Positions 1 to 61,833 of a DNA stretch of 64,000 nucleotides are shown here, one piece after another (position 1 is the stretch's first letter; the number at the start of each line of letters is the position of its first letter). The stretch is from Cycloclasticus sp. 46_120_T64. GTDB taxonomy: Bacteria; Pseudomonadota; Gammaproteobacteria; Methylococcales; Cycloclasticaceae. Location: the NCBI GenBank assembly GCA_002162695.1, contig MAAM01000004.1:1-64000 (forward strand), in the 5' to 3' direction. The translations under genes and the position numbers were made by a program. The notes under the pieces are model-generated. The model saw only the letters and a program-made list of their open reading frames with translations. It ran no database searches and was not told the DNA's origin.

Positions 1-1176
1 GTACCAAATATTCTGCGTTGGTGCGCCTTTTTCAAAAAACAGCACCACGGTTTTAACGCCTGCCCCTAGGAAGGTGCCACTGGGGCAATCTAATACGCTA
101 TGCAAATTACAACTTTCTAACAGTTCCTGACGTAGTGCTTTTGATGCATTATCAGAGTTTGAGAGGAAGGTGTTTTTAATAACCACCGCACCTCTGCCGC
201 CAGCTTTTAGGTATTTGATAAAATGCTGTAAAAACAAAAAGGCGGTTTCGCCGGTTTTGATCGGGAAGTTCTGCTGAATTTCTTTGCGTTCTTTACCGCC
301 AAAAGGAGGATTAGCTAAAATAATATCGTAACGATCCTTCTCTTGAACATCGGCTAGGTTGTCCGCCAGTGTGTTGCTATGCAGGATATTCGGTGTATCG
401 ATACCGTGCAGAATAAGGTTCATGATGGCAATAACATACGCCAAGCTCTTCTTTTCTTTGCCGTAAAAAGTGGATGTTTGCAGAGTGTTTAGTTGATCGG
501 TGGTGAGTTTTTTATTCGCTCTTAGGTAGTCGTGCGATTCACATAAGAAACCGGCTGAGCCACACGCGGCATCGTAAATGGTTTCACCGATGGTCGGTTT
601 TATCACTTCGATCATCGCTCTAATCAACGGCCTTGGGGTGTAATATTCGCCGCCATTACGCCCAGCATTACCCATGTTTTTGATTTTAGTTTCGTAAAGA
701 TGGGATAGCTCGTGTTTTTCTTTTTGTGACCTAAAGTGCAGCCGGTCCATTAGTTCTAGCGCATCTCTTAAGGAATAGCCGCTTTGAAATTTATTCTTAA
801 TTTCGCTGAAGATCTCGCCAATTTTATATTCGATGGTATCGGATGAGGTGGCTCGTTGTTTAAAACCTTTTAAGTACGGGAACAGCTCATTATCCACATA
901 CTCAATAAGGTCTTCACCGGTCAGCGCCGTATCGTGATCAAAACTTCCATCGGAGCGTTTTGGCGCTGCCCATTTTGACCAGTGATGTGCTTGATCAATA
1001 ATGAAGTTATATTGCTTGCCCATTAACTCAGACTCAATCGCCCTTTCGCCTTCTAGGTCATCAAGGTATTTGAGAAATAACATCCATGAGGTTTGTTCGG
1101 TGTAATCAAGTTCTGAAGAACAGCCCGCTTCTTTCCAAAGTACGTCATCGATATTTTTAAAGGTTTGTTCAAACAT
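1..1176 (-). CDS. hsdM: Type I restriction-modification system methylase subunit HsdM (C-terminus cut by window edge)
   Basis: Reverse-strand frame of 392 codons running off the left edge, so the C-terminus is missing. It encodes the N6-adenine methyltransferase subunit of a type I restriction-modification complex, which methylates the recognition site with SAM and partners with HsdS and HsdR. Visible features are an N-terminal helical HsdM_N region, GEYYTPR at about 176-182, the SAM-binding motif I DAACGSAGF at about 202-210, and the catalytic motif IV NPPF at 289-292. The start is the ATG at 1174-1176 (MFEQTFKNID). hsdS and hsdR would lie beyond the left edge. The gene ends about 450 bp from gyrB and on the same strand. 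The family call is secure; whether the system is complete cannot be seen. Confidence 0.93.
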   Translation of the reverse strand, partial: MFEQTFKNIDDVLWKEAGCSSELDYTEQTSWMLFLKYLDDLEGERAIESELMGKQYNFIIDQAHHWSKWAAPKRSDGSFDHDTALTGEDLIEYVDNELFPYLKGFKQRATSSDTIEYKIGEIFSEIKNKFQSGYSLRDALELMDRLHFRSQKEKHELSHLYETKIKNMGNAGRNGGEYYTPRPLIRAMIEVIKPTIGETIYDAACGSAGFLCESHDYLRANKKLTTDQLNTLQTSTFYGKEKKSLAYVIAIMNLILHGIDTPNILHSNTLADNLADVQEKDRYDIILANPPFGGKERKEIQQNFPIKTGETAFLFLQHFIKYLKAGGRGAVVIKNTFLSNSDNASKALRQELLESCNLHSVLDCPSGTFLGAGVKTVVLFFEKGAPTQNIWY

Positions 1177-1633: not shown

Positions 1634-4048
<2,415 letters not shown>

Positions 4049-5128
4049 TTAGTGTTCCTCTGTTTCTATCCTGCCATGTTTCACGTGAAACACTTTAGAT
4101 TTATTTGCTTCAATATATTCTAGAAACAATTGTTTATTGGTCGTGGTGATAAAGACTTGAACAGATAATTTTTCCAAGAAAATCATAACCTTATGAAAAC
4201 TATACTGATCTAATTCTGCGGCTAGGTCATCAATTAACACACAAGCCGATTTTTCTACAACACCACTCATTAATTTTATTTGTGCCAAATACATGGCAAT
4301 AACCATCAACTTCATTTGTCCTCGGGATAGGAAGTCTTGGGCTAATTTATCATTCACCAACACTTTGATATCCGATTTATGCGAACCCACCGTTGAGTGC
4401 CCGCAATACGTATCTCTAGCTTCGGCTTTATTAAGCGCCTCCTCCAGAGACAGGGATTTATCCCAACCTTTTATAAATTCAACTTTAACATCTACATCTC
4501 CCAGCAACTGTCTGGCGATCAAATATAACTCTTGCTCAAACCTAGACACATACGCTTGCCGATCAATACACACCATTGTACCGTATTCAACAAATTTATT
4601 ATTCCATACCGATAAGGTATCAAGCTGCTTCGTTTTTAATAACTTATTTCGTTGTTTTAGTAACTGGTTATGTTTTTTTGATATATCCAAAAAATCATGT
4701 TTTTGATGAAACACTCCCCAATCAATAAATGAACGGCGAACGCTAGAGCCATTTTCCAACAAGGTCTGCGATTCTGGTCGAATTAAATGACTGTGCAAAT
4801 AACGCGATAATTCAGATGATTTTTTTTCCGTTTGACCATTAATCCGAATAACCGTATCCGACTGGCTTTTATTAATGGCTATTTTATGCTGTCGATTATC
4901 ACCCTGTAGTTCCGCAAAAACAGTTAAGTTATCTTGTTGAAATGAAACAACTTTTTTAATATTATGGGTGCGAAAAGAACGTGCTCTGCTTAACAAATAG
5001 AGCGATTCTAGGACACTCGTTTTACCGCTACCATTCGGCCCCACGATAACATTGAGTTTTTCACAGGGGTTCATCCCAATAACAGCAATATTCCTAACAT
5101 TGTTTATTTGTATTTTTGATAAATACAT
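4049..5128 (-). CDS. recF: DNA replication and repair protein RecF
   Basis: SMC-like ATPase that loads RecA at single-strand gaps together with RecO and RecR. 359 residues, typical length. Walker A GPNGSGKT is at residues 30-37, the ABC-type signature LSRGQ is in the C-terminal third, and the Walker B segment with LIDDLAAELD follows. The gene sits between dnaN and gyrB, 10 bp after the dnaN stop, and abuts gyrB. Near the C-terminus the codons for VFHVKH contain a perfect parS palindrome (separate entry), so this part of the gene has a second role as a ParB-binding site. Confidence 0.98.
   Translation of the reverse strand: MYLSKIQINNVRNIAVIGMNPCEKLNVIVGPNGSGKTSVLESLYLLSRARSFRTHNIKKVVSFQQDNLTVFAELQGDNRQHKIAINKSQSDTVIRINGQTEKKSSELSRYLHSHLIRPESQTLLENGSSVRRSFIDWGVFHQKHDFLDISKKHNQLLKQRNKLLKTKQLDTLSVWNNKFVEYGTMVCIDRQAYVSRFEQELYLIARQLLGDVDVKVEFIKGWDKSLSLEEALNKAEARDTYCGHSTVGSHKSDIKVLVNDKLAQDFLSRGQMKLMVIAMYLAQIKLMSGVVEKSACVLIDDLAAELDQYSFHKVMIFLEKLSVQVFITTTNKQLFLEYIEANKSKVFHVKHGRIETEEH
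4077..4092. promoter_or_regulatory. parS: parS centromere site inside recF
   Basis: Sixteen bases TGTTTCACGTGAAACA, a perfect palindrome identical to the universal bacterial parS consensus. It lies within the 3' end of recF. It is the expected loading site for the ParB encoded at 21563..22417. No second perfect copy was noticed in the window. Confidence 0.93.
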
Positions 5129-5138
5129 TTAGCCAGTG

Positions 5139-6239
5139 TTAGATTCGCATCGGCATAATAACAAAACGACTGCTGAGGTCTTCTGGATTTTCTAATAAGC
5201 AACTGCTGTTGGTATCGGTAAAAGACACACGCACCACCTCCGATTCAATAACATTTAACGCATCCATCAAGTAGCTGGAGTTGAACCCCATGCTCATTTC
5301 AGTCCCTTCGTAATCTATTGAGACCTCTTCTTCGGCCTCATCTTGTTCAGGGTTATTCGCATTAATGGTCATTAATCGATCAGAAAGGTCTAAACGAATG
5401 CCCTTATATTTCTCATTCGAGAGAATAGAGACACGTGATAAAGCCGACTTGAATAACTGTTTATCAACCACAAAACTGTGTTCTGCCTCATCGGGCACGA
5501 CATTTTTGAAGTCTGGAAAACGACCGTCAATTAACTTTGCATTGAGCTGAATATCATCAAACGAAAAATTGATATTATTTTTAGCGACTTGAATATTAAC
5601 CAGGCCGTTAAATTTTTCAACTAAACGCAGGATCTCTTGTGCGGCTTTGCGTGGAATAATGACTTGCGAAATAGAACGAGAATCACCGTCCATTTGATTC
5701 GCCGATAATGCCAATCGATGTCCATCGGATGCGACAGTTTGTAATTCGCCATCAATCACATCCATCATTAAACCGTTCAAATAATAACGAACATCTTGTT
5801 GGGCCATACAAAAAATTGTTTTGCTGAAGGCTTTAACCAAAAGATCTCGCTCTAGTTGAATGTTATCCACATAATTCAATTCATCAAATAAGGGATATTC
5901 GTCGGCGGATAAGGTCCGCAGGGTGAATCGGCTCTTGCCTGACTTGATGAGCACGGAACCCGGTTGAAAATTTAAATTAATGATCGAGTCATCCGGCAGT
6001 GATCGACAAATATCTAATAATTTTCGTCCTGGAATGGTGATGGTGAAATCAGCATCCGTATCAAGGGTTGTCTGCGCACTCACCTGAACCTCTAAATCGG
6101 TGCCGGTGAGCTTTAATTCTCCATTACTGATGGATAAATAAACGTTAGACAAAATAGGCAGTGTTTGTCTACGTTCAATTACACCAAAAACCTTCTGTAA
6201 GGGTTCTAATAAAGAAGCTTTAATAATATTTAAATTCAT
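5139..6239 (-). CDS. dnaN: DNA polymerase III beta subunit (sliding clamp)
   Basis: Ring-shaped processivity clamp for DNA polymerase III. 366 residues, the standard length, with three repeated clamp domains and the typical C-terminal ending FVIMPMRI. The N-terminus MNLNIIKASLLEPLQKVFGVIERRQ contains the conserved early stretch of the family. It lies between dnaA and recF in the classical origin order. The 170-bp gap to dnaA holds two DnaA boxes, so transcription may be affected by DnaA binding. Confidence 0.99.
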   Translation of the reverse strand: MNLNIIKASLLEPLQKVFGVIERRQTLPILSNVYLSISNGELKLTGTDLEVQVSAQTTLDTDADFTITIPGRKLLDICRSLPDDSIINLNFQPGSVLIKSGKSRFTLRTLSADEYPLFDELNYVDNIQLERDLLVKAFSKTIFCMAQQDVRYYLNGLMMDVIDGELQTVASDGHRLALSANQMDGDSRSISQVIIPRKAAQEILRLVEKFNGLVNIQVAKNNINFSFDDIQLNAKLIDGRFPDFKNVVPDEAEHSFVVDKQLFKSALSRVSILSNEKYKGIRLDLSDRLMTINANNPEQDEAEEEVSIDYEGTEMSMGFNSSYLMDALNVIESEVVRVSFTDTNSSCLLENPEDLSSRFVIMPMRI

Positions 6240-20792: not shown

Positions 20793-21566
20793 TTGGCAAA
20801 AATAATAGCGGTTGCTAATCAGAAAGGTGGGGTGGGGAAAACCACGACCAGTATTAATTTAGCAGCTTCAATGGCAGAGTTGGGTCGAAGGGTTTTATTG
20901 ATTGATATGGACCCGCAAGGTAATGCAACGATGGGCTGCGGTGTTGATAAAAAAAACGTAGAGCTATCTTGTTACGATGTGTTGCTGGATGATTGTGATC
21001 CAGTGAGTGCTGTAGTAAGCCCAGATAAGCTAAAAAATGATGTATTGCCGAGTAATATGGATCTTGCTGGGGCTGAAGTTCATTTATTGGAAGCGGATCA
21101 TCGTGAAACGCGTTTGAAGACGGCATTGGCAAAGCTGGTTGATGATTATGATTATATGTTTATTGACTGCCCTCCTTCGATGAACATGTTGACGATTAAT
21201 GCCTTGGTCGCGTCGGATAGTGTGTTGGTGCCGATGCAGTGTGAGTACTTTTCTTTGGAAGGTTTATCCTCTTTGATGGATACACTTAAACAAGTTCGAG
21301 CATCGGTGAATAAACAATTGAGCCTAGAAGGCTTGCTGAGAACTATGTTTGATGGGCGTAGTCGGCTTACCCGAGACGTCAGTGAGCAGTTGACGACGCA
21401 TTTTTCGGATCGTCTATTCACCACGGTGATCCCAAGAAATATCCGTTTGGCCGAGGCTCCTAGTTTTGGTTTGCCGGCAATTATTTATGATAAAAGTTCA
21501 CGCGGGGCGATTGCCTATATGGAGTTGGCGCGTGAATTAGATAAAAAATATAATCAGGAATCATGA
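20793..21566 (+). CDS. parA: Chromosome partitioning ATPase ParA (Soj)
   Basis: Walker-type ATPase that moves ParB-parS complexes on the nucleoid. 257 residues. Deviant Walker A KGGVGKTT is at 11-18, with DMDPQGNATMG near 40 and Walker B MFIDCPPS near 120. The start is TTG at 20793 after a purine-rich AAGGGTGATG stretch; the nearby ATG at 20784 is out of frame. It overlaps parB by 4 bp, so the two are translationally coupled. Confidence 0.97.
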   Translation: MAKIIAVANQKGGVGKTTTSINLAASMAELGRRVLLIDMDPQGNATMGCGVDKKNVELSCYDVLLDDCDPVSAVVSPDKLKNDVLPSNMDLAGAEVHLLEADHRETRLKTALAKLVDDYDYMFIDCPPSMNMLTINALVASDSVLVPMQCEYFSLEGLSSLMDTLKQVRASVNKQLSLEGLLRTMFDGRSRLTRDVSEQLTTHFSDRLFTTVIPRNIRLAEAPSFGLPAIIYDKSSRGAIAYMELARELDKKYNQES

Positions 21567-22417
21567 TGGCGATTAAGAAAAGAGGCTTGGGCCGTGGCCT
21601 CGATGCATTATTGAGCCAGTCGTCTGCTACGGAAGAAGTGAAGGCCGATGTTAATACGTTGCCGATTGACCTGCTGCAACGAGGGAAGTATCAGCCACGA
21701 ACAGAGTTTGATCCGGTTCAATTACAAGAGCTCGCGGACTCAATTAGTGCGCAGGGGATAATTCAGCCCATTGTGGTGCGTCCAATGGCGGGTAATAATT
21801 ATGAAATATTAGCCGGTGAACGCCGCTGGCGTGCGGCACAAATAGCCGGTTTACAAGAAGTTTCGGTGTTGATTAATGATGTTGATGACCGTTCGGCGAT
21901 TGCGATCGCGTTAATTGAAAACATTCAACGCGAAGACCTCAATACCTTGGATGAATCTGCCGCCTTACAACGTTTGATTGAAGAGTTTGAACTAACCCAT
22001 CAACAAGCCGCCGATGCGGTGGGACGCTCACGCGTTGCGATTAGTAATTTGCTGCGCTTGCTGGAGCTTGAGGCAGGAGTGAAAGAGCTGATGCGTGCCG
22101 GATCCCTTGATATGGGGCATGGTCGAGCATTATTGGCCTTGCCGCTGGAAAAACAAATGGCGGCGGCAAATAAGGTCGTTGATAAAGGTTATTCGGTACG
22201 AGCAACGGAGGCCTTGGTTAAGCAAATACTTAAAAAATCCACTACGCCGAAACAGCGTAAAGAACGGAATCCAGATATCGAAAGCCTGCAGCAGAGTGTT
22301 GCAGAAAAATTAGGGGCTCGGGTCGATATGAAGCACCAAAGTGATGGGGCTGGGAAAATAATTGTGCATTATTCATCGTTAGATGAGTTAGATAGTGTGC
22401 TGAGTCATTTCAAATAG
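21563..22417 (+). CDS. parB: Chromosome partitioning protein ParB (Spo0J)
   Basis: Binds parS and spreads along DNA as a CTP-dependent clamp. 284 residues. The N-terminus KKRGLGRGLDALLSQ is typical of the ParA-interacting tail. The ParB/Srx CTPase region has GERRWRAAQIAGL near 94-106 and ENIQREDLNTLDES. The helix-turn-helix DAVGRSRVAISNLLRLLEL lies near 150. A perfect parS site for it is at 4077-4092. Start ATG 21563 overlaps the parA stop; ATG 21566 is equally possible. Confidence 0.97.
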   Translation: MMAIKKRGLGRGLDALLSQSSATEEVKADVNTLPIDLLQRGKYQPRTEFDPVQLQELADSISAQGIIQPIVVRPMAGNNYEILAGERRWRAAQIAGLQEVSVLINDVDDRSAIAIALIENIQREDLNTLDESAALQRLIEEFELTHQQAADAVGRSRVAISNLLRLLELEAGVKELMRAGSLDMGHGRALLALPLEKQMAAANKVVDKGYSVRATEALVKQILKKSTTPKQRKERNPDIESLQQSVAEKLGARVDMKHQSDGAGKIIVHYSSLDELDSVLSHFK

Positions 22418-33890: not shown

Positions 33891-34733
33891 ATGAACTATA
33901 CAAATACGCTTCAATCTTTTGCTCATAACCAACATGGGCAGTTAACTTCAATTAGAGAGGCCGAGAGAGGGCAAAGCTGCCTTTGCACATGTCCAGTTTG
34001 CGGTGAGAAGTTAATAGCAAAACAGGGGGGTATCAGAGCTTGGCATTTTGCTCATACCAGTGGTAACGAATGTGAGAATGCAGGTGAAAGTTCACTTCAC
34101 CTGGCTTGTAAAGAGGTCGTAGCGCGAGCATCTATGATAGTAAAGCCTTGTATAGGTGATGATCTGCAATATTTAAAGATACATAAAGCGGACATGGAAA
34201 TCCCTGTCAAAACAGAGGATGGATTAACAGTAGTTCCCGATGTAACCATTTGTTCTTCTAATAACGAATTAACTTTTATTGAGATTGCTGTCACACATAA
34301 AATTGATTTGGAGAAAAAGGAAAAAATCGATAGCCTAAAAATCCCGACAATGGAAATAGTTATTGACTCATCAATGATGGAAGAGTGGGATTGGAAAACA
34401 ATAGAAGAGCTCGTTCTACACGATAATCTTAGGCGTTATTGGGTTTATGAACCGCAGAGCGAGGTGATTGAAAAAACTGATTTTGTTGTTAATAAAGGAA
34501 GCAATTCGTCAGCTTATACAAATGAGTTTCAAACAAAGATTAATGATGTTCCGGTACGTGTCCGACAATTTGATTGGGGTGTTTCAGTTTGGTCTGGGTT
34601 TGATACGGAAGTAAACCTTAAAATAAAAAAAATAATGCGAGGTTTTGGAGGAAGGTGGAATCCGCGCTATAAAAACTGGACTGTGACCGGTTCTATGTTG
34701 TTTGAACCAATGGTTGCAGCTTTAGAGAACTAA
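33891..34733 (+). CDS. CoiA-like putative nuclease with HARP-like C-terminal segment
   Basis: 280 residues. The N-terminal third resembles the CoiA-type zinc module: C34 and C37 (CPVCGEKLIAKQG), then WHFAHTSG with H52 and H55, C61 and a later H70. The middle part looks like the PD-(D/E)xK-type domain of CoiA and related proteins, with PDVT (D117) and TFIEIAVTHKID (E131), and KKEKIDSLKIPTMEI after it. The last 60 residues contain GFGGRWNPRYKNWTV, similar in pattern to HARP-type annealing or DNA-binding motifs. CoiA is linked to competence in Firmicutes, but many relatives lie in mobile regions. An AAGGGG sequence precedes the ATG. The nuclease call is inference from motifs. Confidence 0.7.
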   Translation: MNYTNTLQSFAHNQHGQLTSIREAERGQSCLCTCPVCGEKLIAKQGGIRAWHFAHTSGNECENAGESSLHLACKEVVARASMIVKPCIGDDLQYLKIHKADMEIPVKTEDGLTVVPDVTICSSNNELTFIEIAVTHKIDLEKKEKIDSLKIPTMEIVIDSSMMEEWDWKTIEELVLHDNLRRYWVYEPQSEVIEKTDFVVNKGSNSSAYTNEFQTKINDVPVRVRQFDWGVSVWSGFDTEVNLKIKKIMRGFGGRWNPRYKNWTVTGSMLFEPMVAALEN

Positions 34734-54242: not shown

Positions 54243-54974
54243 ATGCGTATTTCTCGTTTATTTGTTGACCAGCCCTTAGTCGATAATGGGCTGATTAGCC
54301 TTGAAACTGACGCAGCGCATTATTTGCGTAATGTGCTGCGTTTAAAGAAAGGCTTCCAACTGACTCTTTTCAACGGGCGAGGTGGTGAGTTTGCCGCCAC
54401 CGTTGAGTTGGTCAGCCGTAAGGAAGTGAGGTTGAATATTGGTCAATATCGTGAGCTGAATTTGGAGTCAGCTCTCAGCATCGAGCTGGGTTTAAGCGTG
54501 TCTCGTGGGGAGCGGATGGACGTGGCCATTCAAAAAGCGACTGAGCTAGGGGCGAGCATTATTAGCCCCGTATTAACCCAGCATTGTGTGGTCAAGCTAA
54601 ATGACGAGCGACGCTTGCAACGCCATCAGCACTGGCAAAATATTATCTACCGTGCTTGTGAGCAGTGTGGGCGAAATATACCACCGCAACTCAATGTGGC
54701 GGTGGATTTAGCTGAGTGGTTGCAAGGTGACTTGGCTGATAGCCGGATCATTTTTGAACCGGGCAAAGCCGCAAGCTTAAAAAGCTTCCCGCAACCAGCG
54801 CAACAAGTGGCGGTGCTGATTGGGCCTGAAGGTGGCTTTTCCGAACAAGAAGTTATTGACGCACAGCAAGCCGGTTTTAGTGCCTTAGGGTTTGGCCCGA
54901 GGGTGATACGTAATGAAACCGCTGCCATTGCCTCGATAGCAGCGATGCAGGTGCTTTGGGGCGATATGGGGTAG
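54243..54974 (+). CDS. rsmE: 16S rRNA (uracil1498-N3)-methyltransferase RsmE
   Basis: SPOUT-class SAM methyltransferase acting on U1498 of 16S rRNA. 243 residues. The N-terminal PUA-like domain has HYLRNVLRLKKGFQLTLFNGRGGEF, then QKATELGASIISPVLTQHCVVK and the C-terminal knot GPEGGFSEQEVIDAQQAGFSALGFGPRVIRNETAAI. In related gammaproteobacteria this gene is normally next to gshB; here the Mks-like operon separates them. Confidence 0.97.
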   Translation: MRISRLFVDQPLVDNGLISLETDAAHYLRNVLRLKKGFQLTLFNGRGGEFAATVELVSRKEVRLNIGQYRELNLESALSIELGLSVSRGERMDVAIQKATELGASIISPVLTQHCVVKLNDERRLQRHQHWQNIIYRACEQCGRNIPPQLNVAVDLAEWLQGDLADSRIIFEPGKAASLKSFPQPAQQVAVLIGPEGGFSEQEVIDAQQAGFSALGFGPRVIRNETAAIASIAAMQVLWGDMG

Positions 54975-55064: not shown

Positions 55065-55874
55065 GTGCGCATTGCTTCCTACCTTCAAAAAATAGCATTA
55101 GGCCAAACAGTTAATTTTGATGTGCTGCGTCAGCAGCTAGAAGCGCGCGGGTATGACCCAAAGACTATTTTGAATAGTTTTAACGTTGAGAAGCTGGGGC
55201 GCTCAAAAAACTACCGGGTGACGGTGCTAGAGCCGGCATTTTTTGCCGAATTAAGCGCTAGCTTCCCCGATATAAAGGTTATTGATCGAGAAACGGCCTC
55301 GCAGGAGGGCGATAGCCATCGTTGCTCGGTTAGCCGTTCTATTATTGTGATGTATCCAAGTCAGCAATCGCACCCTATCGTCGTGTTAAATGACCGGCAT
55401 GGGTTTCATACACCAGTCAAGCTAGCGAAGCGATTGTTGATTATCGAAAACCAAGAAAATTTTGTAAGAAAACAAGAGTGCATCGCTTTTTTACAGCAAC
55501 AGTTTGTTGATTTTTCTGAGCAAGATTTGGATATAGCGTTGGGTTTTGGCAACAGTGTCAGCAATAAGCTTAATGAAGGGTTTCTCAATCATTATCATGA
55601 GCTTAATTGCCTGTTTGACTTAGACCTGGGTGGGCTGCAAACATTTGCCAATTTAGCTGAGCTAACGAATCACCCCAACTTATCTTTTTTACTACCGCCT
55701 TGTGCTAAATCGTTAATGAAATCAGCCGACGGTGAGCGTAAAATCCGCTGGCAATTACGTGAGGAGCAGTTAGCGCCTTTGGGTGAATTATTGAGGCGTA
55801 CGCCTCAGTTAAGACCGGTTATTAATTTGATAGTGGAACAAAAAATGATGTTAGAGCAAGAGCTGTATTTATAG
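55065..55874 (+). CDS. Compact TOPRIM nuclease subunit of a Mks/Wadjet-like system (MksG/JetD-like)
   Basis: 269 residues, start GTG 55065. The N-terminal 60 residues look like a winged helix. The C-terminal half has a TOPRIM-like fold in the DUF2220/JetD style: LLIIENQENF (128-133) with the catalytic Glu128, GFGNSVS (160-166), and FDLDLGGLQ (184-192) with Asp185 and Asp187. In Wadjet systems this subunit cuts closed circular plasmid DNA after the SMC complex has extruded it. It is shorter than most JetD proteins (about 380-400). It is the first gene of the operon and is 2 bp upstream of the SMC gene. Motif-based call; no search was run. Confidence 0.75.
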   Translation: MRIASYLQKIALGQTVNFDVLRQQLEARGYDPKTILNSFNVEKLGRSKNYRVTVLEPAFFAELSASFPDIKVIDRETASQEGDSHRCSVSRSIIVMYPSQQSHPIVVLNDRHGFHTPVKLAKRLLIIENQENFVRKQECIAFLQQQFVDFSEQDLDIALGFGNSVSNKLNEGFLNHYHELNCLFDLDLGGLQTFANLAELTNHPNLSFLLPPCAKSLMKSADGERKIRWQLREEQLAPLGELLRRTPQLRPVINLIVEQKMMLEQELYL

Positions 55875-55876
55875 AG

Positions 55877-58792
55877 ATGACGATGGAAAATTTAGATTTA
55901 TTAACAAAGAAACTCAGTTATTCCGTTAAAAAACTGGTGGCGGTTAATTCAATTAGTTTTTGCTATGTTGAGCTACCGATTGACCAACATTGTGCCTTAT
56001 TTGGGCGAAATAACTTGGGTAAAACTTCCTTGTTAAATGTTTTAAAGCTACACCTTTTTCCTGAAATAAGTTTTAACGACTGCCAGAATAAGTTTGCTTT
56101 TAAATCATCAAAGGGAGAGCTTTACGCGGGTGATGATAGTTACCTCTATTATTTCCCCAGTGATAGTAGTTTTCTTATTTTGGAAGCGGAAAATATTCAT
56201 GGGTGTTTTTGTCTGATTTTATTTAAGTCGAATAGCAGCTTTGGTTACCAGCGACTTGCCTTGCCTTGCGCCTATGATGAGATACGCGAGCAGTTCTGGG
56301 ATATAGAGCAGCAGACGGTTAACAATGGTTTGGGCAGCCCAGTGAGTGATCTAGGTTTGGCTAAAATAACCTCACTGTATAAACAATATAAGTCACAAGG
56401 TGCGGTTATTTTAAAAAGTACCAAGGAGATTAAGGATAAACTCTTTAGTCATTACCCCCTGCAGCCGGAAAAGGGGCGGTTCTGCCTAGTTCCACTGAAA
56501 GAAGGTGGGGTTAGCCGTGAATTGAGCGCCTTTCGCCAGTTAATGAATTTTACCTTCGAAATTGCTAAAACTGATACCCGTAGTTTGACCGAAACGTTTG
56601 CGACAATCATCGAAAGTAGCAAAATAAATACGCAAGATCGTTTACACCAAGATTTGCAGCAGATTCTGGATGAGTACGAATCCCTACGGAAGGCGGAAAG
56701 TCGGCTGAAAAATATTAGTCAATATGAAGCGCCGTTTCAGCAGCTAGACAACACTAGCCGGAGCCTCAACAGTCAACAGAGTGACTTTAGCTGTACATAT
56801 CATGCTTATGGCAATTCATTACAGCAGTCATTAGTTCATCTGAATGGAAACATAAAGCAGCAGGACGTGGTGAAAGACGGCTTGCGGACTGAAAAGAGCC
56901 GACTTGAGGTTTCTGATAAAGAGCTGGAAACGACTCTCAGCGAATATAAGGGCCAGTTAATCAGCCTGAATAAGGAGTTTCAAACCGTTGATAAAAAAGC
57001 ACAGCAGTACCGGGTACTACAAAAAGAGTATCCAAACGTAGAGGATGCGGAAATTAAAGAGATCCTCGCTGAGCATGCAGAGCTGCTCGTTGAAAAAGTT
57101 GAAAACCTAAAGAGTGCTGAGCGTGCGACTGAGCAATTACGCTTAGCGCTTCTTCAGCAAAAAACGAAGCGGCAGGAACGGCACAAAAAACAAGTGGCGA
57201 TTGAGCAAAGCGGGGATTATTTGATTCATCAGTTAGGTGAGCACAGCAGCCTAGTTTTAGCAAATTTAAGCCCGCTTTTTGCTGAGGTAACCACGGTGGC
57301 TGATCAGCAGCAGCGGTCGGCTATTGAGAATTTTACGAGCTTGTTTTCAACCGACAATAATCAATTGCACTTTTTGGCGGAGACGTTTGGCACGCAGGCT
57401 TTAAAGTCACCTCAGGAGATCATTAATCAATGGAAAAGGGAGCTTGAGCAATTAGAGGCGGAGCTTTTTGACCTCGATACGAAGGTCAATGAACTGGTCC
57501 AAATCAGTAAAAACTCTGGTGAGCAGCAACAGGCGGAACTTGGCAAGACAGAAGACGAGCTACAAGTCGTTAAAGATGACTTAATCGTTTTACATACTGT
57601 CGAGGAGACGAGTGTGCGCTGGGCCGCTCTAAAAGAGGAGTTGGCAAGGATTGAGCAGGATAGGCAATGTAAAGAGCGGCAACGAGAAGACAATAAAGAA
57701 CAATTAGGCGGCTTTGTTGAGCGGCTCGCAGGCATGAGGGAGGCGCTTGAGGCGGATCAGCACCAGCAGCGGCTGTTGACTCAGTTGCAGCAGCGTTTAT
57801 TGAAACTAAAACCGTTAGAATTAATGGCTGGGGAGCCAGTTAGTGTGCCGTCAGTGAGTGCCAGTGACCTCGATGAACTGGAGGGAGAGTCAGTAAAGCT
57901 CAGCAGTATGAATGAAAAGCTGGTTCAGCAGTTTAATGATTTTATTCAATGCGGTCATTTTGAATTACCGATTGATGTCGCCTGTAATTATTATGACCAG
58001 CAGCAGCAAGGACAACTTTTAGAGGCCTTGCGTACGCTGTTTATTGCGCTTCCCGAGCAGCTTGCCACCTTGGCAAGCCAAGTGATTGAACATAATAAAA
58101 TGACGGGGACTAAAATCAGCGAGTTGGCGGGGAATCGCCAGCACATCCGGGCGTTTGTTAATAAAATTAATAAGCAGTTTAATCATTATTCGATCTCTAA
58201 TTTACAAGAAATACGGGTTGAAATTGAGTTGGATAGTCGTTTTGAAGCATTAGTTGATGAGCTGAATAACACCAATCTGAACACCACCGATATTCATGAT
58301 GATGGGCTTTACCAGCGGTTGAATAGTTTTTGTGAGGATTTCTTTACTGGGCATCACGGTAATCGAATTCTGGAGGTGAGTAAGATTATCAAGAATGTGA
58401 AATACAGTTATATCAAGCAACATCAGGATAAGCGCGAAGATAAAGATCAAAGTACGGGTACCAATGCGTTAATTAACTGTACCCTACTGACGATTCTACT
58501 GAGTGATTTATTGTCACAAGATAGCCAGCTAACCTTGCCGATTATTTTTGACGAGTTTACTGCGCTGGATGAATACAATCAGCGTACTGCTATTAAGGTG
58601 GCCAGCGAACATGGGTTTTCGCTATTTTGTGCATCGCCTACCGATACCGCTGAGGTGGTGTCGGTGGTTGATTATTATATTCACCTCGATGATTTTCACG
58701 TCGATACGCTTTACGATGCAGCGGGTGAGCGAGATATTGTTTTTCATCATTTTCAGGAACGGCTGTATGAGCTGACAGAGCAGGCTGAATAA
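55877..58792 (+). CDS. mksB: SMC-like ATPase, MksB/JetC type
   Basis: 971 residues. The N-terminal ATPase lobe has Walker A GRNNLGKTS at 43-51. A long region rich in Gln, Glu, Lys and Leu (about 260-800) forms coiled coil with a short hinge. The C-terminal lobe carries a signature-like STGTNALINC near 858 and Walker B LPIIFDEFTALDEYN near 886. MksB proteins are short relatives of MukB that compact DNA; with kleisin MksF and MksE they form a condensin, and with MksG they destroy plasmids. It overlaps the MksF-like gene by one base. Confidence 0.88.
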   Translation: MTMENLDLLTKKLSYSVKKLVAVNSISFCYVELPIDQHCALFGRNNLGKTSLLNVLKLHLFPEISFNDCQNKFAFKSSKGELYAGDDSYLYYFPSDSSFLILEAENIHGCFCLILFKSNSSFGYQRLALPCAYDEIREQFWDIEQQTVNNGLGSPVSDLGLAKITSLYKQYKSQGAVILKSTKEIKDKLFSHYPLQPEKGRFCLVPLKEGGVSRELSAFRQLMNFTFEIAKTDTRSLTETFATIIESSKINTQDRLHQDLQQILDEYESLRKAESRLKNISQYEAPFQQLDNTSRSLNSQQSDFSCTYHAYGNSLQQSLVHLNGNIKQQDVVKDGLRTEKSRLEVSDKELETTLSEYKGQLISLNKEFQTVDKKAQQYRVLQKEYPNVEDAEIKEILAEHAELLVEKVENLKSAERATEQLRLALLQQKTKRQERHKKQVAIEQSGDYLIHQLGEHSSLVLANLSPLFAEVTTVADQQQRSAIENFTSLFSTDNNQLHFLAETFGTQALKSPQEIINQWKRELEQLEAELFDLDTKVNELVQISKNSGEQQQAELGKTEDELQVVKDDLIVLHTVEETSVRWAALKEELARIEQDRQCKERQREDNKEQLGGFVERLAGMREALEADQHQQRLLTQLQQRLLKLKPLELMAGEPVSVPSVSASDLDELEGESVKLSSMNEKLVQQFNDFIQCGHFELPIDVACNYYDQQQQGQLLEALRTLFIALPEQLATLASQVIEHNKMTGTKISELAGNRQHIRAFVNKINKQFNHYSISNLQEIRVEIELDSRFEALVDELNNTNLNTTDIHDDGLYQRLNSFCEDFFTGHHGNRILEVSKIIKNVKYSYIKQHQDKREDKDQSTGTNALINCTLLTILLSDLLSQDSQLTLPIIFDEFTALDEYNQRTAIKVASEHGFSLFCASPTDTAEVVSVVDYYIHLDDFHVDTLYDAAGERDIVFHHFQERLYELTEQAE

Positions 58793-60174
58793 TGCATATT
58801 GCGCTGGATCGAACCCTTATTTTGTTGATTAGCCATAAGGACCTGATGTTTCAATTTATTGATTACATGGACCAAAATCACCGGAAAGAGATTCCTAGCC
58901 AGGTTTTTATTCATTGTTTAAAGGCCAAACTTGAGCGAATAACGAAAAAATCAGAGGTGGAGCGCTTAAGTGAAGCCTTCGATCTGCATAACTTAATTAA
59001 AGCGGATATTGTGACGGAATATAATCGTTCACGTGGAACGATTGCCTTTCAACCGTCGGTGATTGAAATCTTTCGCCTTTTCGATAAAGAAAGGGTGCGT
59101 GGTTTGCGTAGTGCGGAGCTGGAAAGTATTCGTTTTCAGTTAGACAGTTGCCTCCAGCAGCATCAGCAATCAACCTTTTCTGTGGATGATCCCGATTTTC
59201 GGGAGCAACGTGAGCAGTTATTTGATTTATTGCGTCAGATTAACAATCAGGTAAAAAATAATACCGCGCACCTTCAGCATGAGGTTGATCGTTTATCTAA
59301 TCGGCTGGATCATGATCATGCGGTGCTCACACTCGATGACTCTCAACAAGTGCAAGAGGCCTTGCTGCAGGTGAGGAAAATCTTTGATCGTGAAATTATT
59401 CCGATTTTGGAGTTCCTCAATAGCCGAGAACAAAGCAAAAACAAGATGCCGCTAACCCTTGTGGATAATATTAGTCAGCTTTATCAAGGTAAGGGTTTCG
59501 AGGACGATTGTTATTATATCGACCAATATAAACTGTCCATTCTTAGTCATTACAAGGCGGTTGAAAAGGTTAAATTAGCCCTGCAGCGCTACCTCCACCA
59601 AGAACGTAGTCATCGTCTCACTTATAATGCATTGGAGCAGTCGTACCTGCATTTGCAACAACTTGCCCAACAGAGTTTTACCGAGAACTTGAAAGATAAA
59701 TATATTTTGAAACCGCTCAGCCAAGAGGCGCTGTATTATTCCGGCTTAAAAACACATAGTGCTGCACAGGATGCAACGACCGAATGGTTTGACAAGAACC
59801 ACAGTGTTTATTTCAATGAGCATCTGATACAGCAAAAAAGCCGGCAGCGGAGTCAGGCGGTAGCAAACATTAGCACCGTACATCGGCGGCACCCACGTGA
59901 ACCGGGAAACCTGTTGAAACGAGAGATTACAAAGCTAGTGGCTAATAGTCGCCTTAAGCCACCGGTGGCAGACCTTTATTTGGCTTTACACGGTCTATTG
60001 GTGGATCATTTGGCTGAGAGTTATCAACTGGCTTACTTACTTTATGCGGTCAGTTGTTTTAAACAAAAGAAACTTGGGGTCTATACTCTCAAGGTGCATT
60101 TTAGTGACCCACAACAGCAAATTAGATATAAAAACAGCGTTTTACAATATAACCGGCGCGAGTTAGTTTTATGA
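58792..60174 (+). CDS. mksF: MksF/JetA-like kleisin subunit
   Basis: 460 residues, mostly helical. The N-terminus resembles the MukF/MksF winged-helix region (HKDLMFQFIDYMDQNHRKEIPSQVF), followed by VERLSEAFDLHNLIKADIV. A long helical linker (about 110-330) and a C-terminal winged-helix-like part follow. The kleisin bridges the SMC heads and binds MksE. The size matches MksF (about 440). It starts within the stop of the MksB gene (TAATG) and overlaps the MksE gene by 4 bp. Called by order, size and sequence style. Confidence 0.8.
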   Translation: MHIALDRTLILLISHKDLMFQFIDYMDQNHRKEIPSQVFIHCLKAKLERITKKSEVERLSEAFDLHNLIKADIVTEYNRSRGTIAFQPSVIEIFRLFDKERVRGLRSAELESIRFQLDSCLQQHQQSTFSVDDPDFREQREQLFDLLRQINNQVKNNTAHLQHEVDRLSNRLDHDHAVLTLDDSQQVQEALLQVRKIFDREIIPILEFLNSREQSKNKMPLTLVDNISQLYQGKGFEDDCYYIDQYKLSILSHYKAVEKVKLALQRYLHQERSHRLTYNALEQSYLHLQQLAQQSFTENLKDKYILKPLSQEALYYSGLKTHSAAQDATTEWFDKNHSVYFNEHLIQQKSRQRSQAVANISTVHRRHPREPGNLLKREITKLVANSRLKPPVADLYLALHGLLVDHLAESYQLAYLLYAVSCFKQKKLGVYTLKVHFSDPQQQIRYKNSVLQYNRRELVL

Positions 60175-60731
60175 TCAATAACACACAGAGCCAAAAACTT
60201 TATAACCTACTGATTAACGGTAAAATGGTTAATCAGCGGCAGTACGATAGTAAGAGTAATCAATTAGAGGAAAACCCTCTTTATAATGAACTTTTTACCC
60301 AGCTTGATGAATATAGTCTGCTTTATCGGCGCATCGGTTATGCCTTGGTGCATAAAGAAAGTAGTTTTTTCTTTATACGTGAACTCGCTGGCGAAGAGTC
60401 GAATGAGGCGGCTATAAAAGTCCAAGCGCTGTTTATTATTATCGGCCGTTATATGACTGAAAAAGGCTATTTATTTGAGGTGCTAAGTGATTACCGTGCG
60501 GGGCTAGCGCCTGAAAACCTCGCGATGATTAGTGCCGAGGAGCGTTACCTTGATATTTTACAGACCTGTAAATTATGCAAATCAAGAACGGTTGAAGAAG
60601 AGCTTGATAATCATTTAGTTAACCGCGGTTTGATGTTTAAAAACAGTCGGGGGAATTATGTCTTGAGCGAAGCGGGGCTAGGTTTCTTTAATGAATTAAC
60701 CGAGGCATATACAGGGTCAATAGAGGCTTGA
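60171..60731 (+). CDS. mksE: MksE/JetB-like accessory subunit
   Basis: 186 residues, winged-helix-like: SQKLYNLLINGKMVNQRQYDSKSNQLEENPLYNELFTQLDEYSLLYRRIGYALVHKESSFFFIRE. This is the usual MksE/MukE-type size and pattern, a dimeric subunit binding the kleisin. It is the last gene, overlapping the kleisin by ATGA. In P. aeruginosa the order is mksF-mksE-mksB, so the order here is different. A gap of 160 bp then separates it from gshB. Confidence 0.8.
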   Translation: MINNTQSQKLYNLLINGKMVNQRQYDSKSNQLEENPLYNELFTQLDEYSLLYRRIGYALVHKESSFFFIRELAGEESNEAAIKVQALFIIIGRYMTEKGYLFEVLSDYRAGLAPENLAMISAEERYLDILQTCKLCKSRTVEEELDNHLVNRGLMFKNSRGNYVLSEAGLGFFNELTEAYTGSIEA

Positions 60732-60891: not shown

Positions 60892-61833
60892 ATGCGACTA
60901 GGTGTTGTCATGGACCCTATTGGGGCGATCAATATTAAAAAAGATACCAGCTTTTCGATGCTGTTAGAGGCTCAAAGCCGTGGCTGGGAATTGTTTTATA
61001 TGGAACCGCAAGACCTCTATTTATTGGATGGTCAGGCGAAGGCGTTGTGCAAGCCGTTGACGGTTCAGCGTGATGAGGAACATTGGTTCGATTTAGCGGA
61101 TGCTATCGACCAGCCGTTGAGTGAGCTGGATGCGATTTTGATGCGTGTCGACCCACCGTTTGATATGGATTATATCTACACCACCTACCTACTTGAGCGA
61201 GCTGAGGCGGCCGGTGTTTTGGTGGTGAACAAACCGCAATCCTTACGTGATGCGAATGAAAAATTATTCACCGCATGGTTTCCGCAGTGCTGTTCACCCA
61301 CCTTGGTGACCTCACAAACCCAGCGGATTAGGGATTTCTTAACGGAACACGGCGATATCATCGTTAAGCCCTTAGATGGGATGGGTGGCGCGTCTATTTT
61401 CCGTTTAAAAGCACAAGACCATAATTTAGGCGTGGTGCTCGAAACCATGACCGATCACGGTAAGAAGCTGACCATGGCGCAGCGTTATTTGGCTGAAATT
61501 AAACAGGGCGATAAACGTATTCTGATGATTAATGGTAAGCCGGTACCTTACGGTTTAGCACGGATTCCTGCCGCAGGGGAAACCCGAGGCAATCTCGCCG
61601 CTGGTGGCACCGGTGCGGGACGAGAGCTAACAGACCGTGAATATTGGCTGTGTGAGCAGATCGGTCCTGTATTGGTGGAGAAGGGCTTATTATTCGTAGG
61701 CTTGGATGTGATTGGTGATTATGTGACCGAAATTAATGTGACCAGCCCAACGTGTGTACAAGAGTTAGATAATTTGTATGGCTTGAATATCAGTGCTTTA
61801 TTGATGGACTGTATCGAGGAAAAGCTCGCTTAA
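60892..61833 (+). CDS. gshB: Glutathione synthetase
   Basis: ATP-grasp enzyme joining gamma-glutamylcysteine and glycine. 313 residues. The N-terminus MRLGVVMDPIGAINIKKDTSFSMLLEAQ is followed by DAILMRVDPPFDMDYIYTTYLLE, the ATP-grasp segment IIVKPLDGMGGASIFRL and GLLFVGLDVIGDYVTEINVTSPTC. It is the first of gshB-tonB-yqgE-ruvX-pyrR, a conserved gammaproteobacterial set, and probably has its own promoter in the 160-bp gap before it. Confidence 0.98.
   Translation: MRLGVVMDPIGAINIKKDTSFSMLLEAQSRGWELFYMEPQDLYLLDGQAKALCKPLTVQRDEEHWFDLADAIDQPLSELDAILMRVDPPFDMDYIYTTYLLERAEAAGVLVVNKPQSLRDANEKLFTAWFPQCCSPTLVTSQTQRIRDFLTEHGDIIVKPLDGMGGASIFRLKAQDHNLGVVLETMTDHGKKLTMAQRYLAEIKQGDKRILMINGKPVPYGLARIPAAGETRGNLAAGGTGAGRELTDREYWLCEQIGPVLVEKGLLFVGLDVIGDYVTEINVTSPTCVQELDNLYGLNISALLMDCIEEKLA

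Follow-up and report, generated by a model that had tools for sequence, protein, structure and literature searches.

A probable nuclease-armed, Wadjet-like Mks operon of gene order G-B-F-E in a Cycloclasticus genome with missing Smc-ScpAB

The stretch of 64,000 bp analysed here (the window) belongs to the genome of Cycloclasticus sp. 46_120_T64 (G000), which comprises 2.21 Mb in 15 contigs and is 99.97% complete. Positions 55065-60731 of the window hold four open reading frames on the plus strand, joined as tightly as the sequence-only reading had described them, with a gap of 2 bp at the first junction and overlaps of 1 and 4 bp at the second and third. The first, an mksG/jetD-like gene (55065-55874), encodes a TOPRIM nuclease of 269 aa, and its GTG start aligns with the ATG starts of its homologues. 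The TOPRIM glutamate E128 (motif IENQ, codon at 55446-55448) and the DxD motif of codons 185-187 (D185 and D187, 55617-55625), residues already picked out from the letters, are all in place and, like a C-terminal EQE (codons 264-266, 55854-55862), are invariant in 17/17 homologues. The second gene (mksB/jetC-like, 55877-58792) encodes an SMC ATPase of 971 aa with a Walker A motif GRNNLGKT (residues 43-50, 56003-56026), an ABC signature QSTGT (residues 858-862, 58448-58462) and a Walker B motif IIFDE (residues 889-893, 58541-58555); the first two lie where they had been expected, the last slightly later than the residue 886 first proposed. It is followed by an mksF/jetA-like gene for a kleisin of 460 aa (58792-60174), the weakest of the four assignments, and by an mksE/jetB-like gene of 186 aa (60171-60731). 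The same order, nuclease-SMC-kleisin-MksE (G-B-F-E), recurs in about 20 other loci at protein identities down to 20-30%, and the four-gene operon is therefore not a product of chance.

All four subunits are assigned by independent tests, of which that for the kleisin is the weakest link. The TOPRIM protein gave an AF2 model with a pLDDT of 91, and the best fold match of its TOPRIM part (residues 92-269) is MksG of C. glutamicum (8b7f, Z 14.4, rmsd 2.7 over 147 residues), followed by topoisomerase VI A, Spo11 and JetD (7til, Z 10.6); the TOPRIM part is preceded by about 88 residues, and the fold lists barely reach residues 1-88. The likeness to JetD/MksG, named beforehand as the point on which the reading of the first gene would stand or fall, was thus found. 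The SMC protein aligned with an alignment including a Pseudomonas-type MksB, a sequence that passes the NCBIfam Mks model, over 860 columns (hhalign 100%, E 2e-41), which bears out the SMC ATPase and makes it MksB-like. The third protein, at first described only as kleisin-sized, resembles the kleisin profile of short-SMC Mks operons at a moderate level (hhalign 82%, E 1e-5), and MukF tops the fold list of its model, which is of modest confidence (pLDDT 65, Z 14.4). The small fourth protein scores well above the cut-off of PF21980, a family that matches E. coli too (56.2 bits versus 27, E 7e-15), in agreement with its proposed identity as MksE. Against type I proteins, the TOPRIM profile matched JetD weakly (40%, E 3e-4) and the kleisin profile did not match JetA (0.5%); neither phmmer with the TOPRIM and MksE proteins nor profile searches with the TOPRIM and kleisin proteins returned anything meaningful from PDB sequences. 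Purifying selection acts on the nuclease gene in relatives, with dN 0.09 versus dS 0.62 for L018/L023 and dN 0.12 versus dS 1.12 for L018/L021, figures that hold between relatives, synonymous sites from the window to its relatives being saturated in nearly all comparisons.

The operon resembles MksBEFG of C. glutamicum and Wadjet type I (JetABCD) in its four kinds of subunit, in the fold of the nuclease, in the catalytic acids and in its tight organization. The TOPRIM glutamate, the DxD motif and the C-terminal glutamates of type I nucleases all have counterparts in the window nuclease, whose EQE occupies the region in which MksG/JetD carry their conserved glutamate pair (PMC10123090). The differences are equally clear: type I has the order F-E-B-G (jetABCD = mksFEBG, the C. 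glutamicum-type order; PMC10123090) instead of G-B-F-E, its SMC measures about 1110-1150 aa compared with 971 aa, and its nuclease, of about 370-400 aa, carries a long N-terminal domain (the DUF3322 region) that the 269-aa window nuclease does not have. The lack of this MksG/JetD region may have a bearing on autoinhibition and DNA clamping. The PADLOC JetA-D models gave no call on the window proteins, the best matches being to JetD1 (E 0.0018, spanning only positions 305-385 of the 387 of the profile) and JetC1 (E 0.0088), with none to JetA or JetB, whereas a type I control reached 1e-134 (JetD) and 0 in the same search; the type II and III models did not match any window protein. Likewise, the NCBIfam models NF040857-NF040859, all three of which the control L075 passes, were not passed, and only MksE gave a match, at 22 bits versus a cut-off of 400. 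With its gene order, its nuclease without the long N-terminal domain and the lack of a PADLOC or NCBIfam call, the operon falls outside Wadjet type I on the features tested. The earlier description as Wadjet/MksBEFG-like stands for the kinds of subunit; that the operon represents a separate subtype had not been anticipated. We consider it probable that the operon encodes a nuclease-armed, Wadjet-like Mks complex, a short-armed relative of MksBEFG in the order G-B-F-E, and in all likelihood it would work like Wadjet.

Other condensins are similar in part. In a profile comparison the SMC of Pseudomonas MksBEF aligns over nearly its full length (hhalign 100%), and its subunits are of similar size, but that system has a different gene order and no TOPRIM gene, and its equivalog models do not match the window proteins. 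MukBEF shares a MukF that resembles the model of the window kleisin, but lacks a nuclease, and the window SMC is about 500 aa shorter and far apart in the SMC tree. The operons L011, L012, L014 and L080 likewise combine a short SMC, a small TOPRIM protein ending in LEQE and an MksE, but are ordered kleisin-MksE-SMC-TOPRIM, fall in a separate clade of the SMC tree and match the TOPRIM profile at 75% only. Their TOPRIM proteins are about 290 aa long, PADLOC matches are weak (L011 tested), and genome G238 holds both this type and the G-B-F-E type. A further arrangement, SMC (about 1225 aa), MksE-like, kleisin-sized and TOPRIM-like, was seen at L085:5638-12024 and L087:3455-9806, with no more than weak PADLOC matches to JetD3/JetD1 and JetC1 (L087 tested). 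At L075:4369-9333 two NCBIfam names appear to be swapped: NF040857 ('MksB') matches a kleisin of 462 aa and NF040859 ('MksF') an SMC ATPase of 944 aa. The output of a PADLOC JetC2 search of the genomes was mostly coiled-coil noise and was discarded.

The loci with G-B-F-E order are found in Methylobacter and other Methylococcales, in Cycloclasticus, in Psychrobacter and on a pair of large plasmids (320 and 599 kb) from Photobacterium and Methylophaga; two more whole genomes (L079 and L081) show the order as well. One relative, L015, gave weak PADLOC matches to JetD3 (7e-6) and JetC3 (2e-5). In a tree of SMC heads, built without a confirmed type II or III reference, the SMCs of G-B-F-E operons group into a single clade (90/86), whose neighbours are the nuclease-free Pseudomonas-type group and the group ordered kleisin-MksE-SMC-TOPRIM; the deep branches of the tree are long, and how they are arranged is uncertain. 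The copy on the Photobacterium plasmid has two extra genes, one of them annotated as DUF5406, between SMC and kleisin (L039:14938-15712). No description of the G-B-F-E order, or of a genome with Mks only, was found among open-access papers, and an earlier description is possible.

Some relatives adjoin type I, II and III restriction-modification genes and CRISPR I-F genes, as would be expected of a defence system. Such neighbours would also suit a complex directed against phages, which would sense replicating or circularised phage DNA instead of plasmids; this we regard as improbable, given that the known MksG/JetD systems act on plasmids and that a search of viral contigs for relatives found none. 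The Psychrobacter copies L036, L037 and L038 are decaying, with split SMC genes and, in one of them, a probable insertion sequence inside; as these copies are broken up or interrupted, the system is dispensable there. Both the neighbours and the decay agree with a purely accessory plasmid defence that acts only on invading circular DNA, with the loss of smc-scpAB described below an unrelated event, tolerated by means of ParABS and other nucleoid proteins.

The window covers the origin region, with gyrB, recF, dnaN and dnaA left of 8 kb, a perfect parS site TGTTTCACGTGAAACA at 4077-4092 (plus strand, 0 mismatches), and further mnmE, mnmG, rsmG, parA (20793-21566) and parB (21563-22417); the last two, on the plus strand and identified by Pfam, were kept despite the missing smc-scpAB, and the genes in this list other than dnaA and parAB were named by eye from the sequence. 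A type I restriction gene hsdM, cut by the window edge (1-1176, minus strand), adjoins gyrB near the origin, and a CoiA-like competence gene (33891-34733, plus strand) is also located near the replication origin. The operon lies about 47 kb from dnaA among housekeeping genes, between two that Pfam confirms, rsmE (54243-54974) and gshB (60892-61833), and not within a defence island of this genome; directly upstream of it no clear promoter was seen. This placement in a housekeeping cluster near the origin, with no clear promoter of its own, argues against a purely accessory role. The genes rsmE and gshB are adjacent in the congeners G008 and G005, and separated by unrelated genes in others. Across L116-L124, the gap between them is empty in some species and filled with unrelated genes in others, like an insertion hotspot. 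The only congener besides the window genome with an SMC of this type is G016 (G016 and L026, contig LWTM01000068.1), where it is divergent and located at another site, and the SMC-head tree places the nearest relatives in methanotrophs. The variable rsmE-gshB site, the single divergent congener SMC elsewhere and the methanotroph relatives together fit a horizontal acquisition of the operon.

The wider genome was searched with HMMs and compared by synteny, and the absence of smc and scpAB rests on both approaches. No canonical smc exceeded the model cut-off in the window genome; the weak SMC matches inspected (L091-L093) proved to be chemoreceptor-like, globin-like or other coiled-coil proteins and were rejected. 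ScpA, present in 84/85 good relatives, is absent, the window genome being the exception, and scpB is missing from its syntenic locus without a remnant. Among the congeners, smc is found in 16/17 (15 over the cut-off and one split over two contigs), the remaining genome being 58% complete. Both expected sites are contiguous: the smc site on contig C1 of the window genome (3534-3902, L112) is bounded by a neighbouring gene that begins at 3534 (minus strand) and by zipA, which starts at 3902, and the scpAB site (C1:73776-74138, L113) by pyk, which ends at position 4776 of L113, and rluB, which starts at 5139. Neither site holds remnants of smc, scpA or scpB or any N, and the neighbours are syntenic with those of congeners. 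That the absence is an assembly artefact, and the operon one condensin of two, is very improbable: in an assembly of 15 contigs something could be missing, but each locus is internal to contig C1 and flanked left and right by syntenic neighbours, and two unlinked losses would be required of a genome of this completeness. A single MksE/MukE-family match was found in the window genome, from which we infer that MukB is absent as well. With smc and scpAB missing, the operon is the only condensin found in this genome. It is also carried by the sole ScpA-less genome among the 85 good ones, an association that speaks against an unrelated, accessory role. Canonical smc is kept, on the other hand, in 20/20 other genomes tested with a G-B-F-E operon (in two as fragments at contig ends), and ParABS is kept in the window genome, as a purely accessory defence would have it. 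Being one case among 18 genomes, the joint occurrence of operon and smc loss is suggestive and not a proof.

The mechanism proposed for the operon is modelled on studies of type I systems (PMC10586767, PMC10123090). MksB SMC motors, bridged by the kleisin MksF and by MksE, would extrude loops of DNA. When the substrate is a small closed circle, for instance a plasmid, the motors would use up the DNA and collide, and the collision would trigger cutting by the bound MksG, the TOPRIM nuclease; a megabase chromosome would be spared as it is never extruded in full. Complex formation and DNA cutting by the operon products are predicted from these parallels, and restriction of plasmids by the operon is, in our estimate, quite probable. 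Wadjet spares circles larger than about 100 kb (PMC10586767); the carrier plasmids of 320 and 599 kb exceed this size, which counts for a Wadjet-like reading.

As the only condensin found in the genome, the same complex may also fold the chromosome and help to segregate it alongside ParABS. Bacteria can survive without any condensin. The absence of other condensins, together with the kept parAB and parS, makes it a serious though somewhat doubtful possibility that the operon has taken over the chromosome role, while an accessory plasmid defence alone, weighing the evidence above, comes close to an even chance. A more radical reading, in which the acquired Mks is the chromosomal condensin and its TOPRIM subunit now serves chromosome work, such as decatenation or repair, and not defence, could draw on the loss of smc and scpAB at two separate loci without remnant, on the place of the nuclease in the topoisomerase VI A/Spo11/MksG fold group and on the part that MksBEF of P. 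aeruginosa takes in chromosome segregation (PMC7485682). We consider it unlikely: in smc-bearing relatives the nuclease is the same and so are its invariant residues, any tyrosine-based strand passage is putative, and the nucleases MksG and JetD have plasmids as their target (PMC10123090, PMC10586767).

The wider interest of the operon as a probable nuclease-armed, Wadjet-like Mks complex lies in the missing Smc-ScpAB of the same genome. According to one proposal, the condensins MukBEF and MksBEF arose from Wadjet defence complexes, and it follows from the loop-extrusion model that Wadjet acts on chromosomes too. We tentatively suggest, as a reading that is itself rather doubtful, that a horizontally acquired, nuclease-armed condensin replaced Smc-ScpAB yet kept its plasmid-cutting subunit, and would thus be a living intermediate on the route proposed to lead from Wadjet to the nuclease-free MksBEF/MukBEF. 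The G-B-F-E operons represent a branch of plasmid-defence-like systems that is missed by the PADLOC models, and in Cycloclasticus sp. 46_120_T64, where the only detectable condensin has an intact nuclease subunit, the ideas of a Wadjet origin of condensins and of Wadjet work on chromosomes become directly testable.
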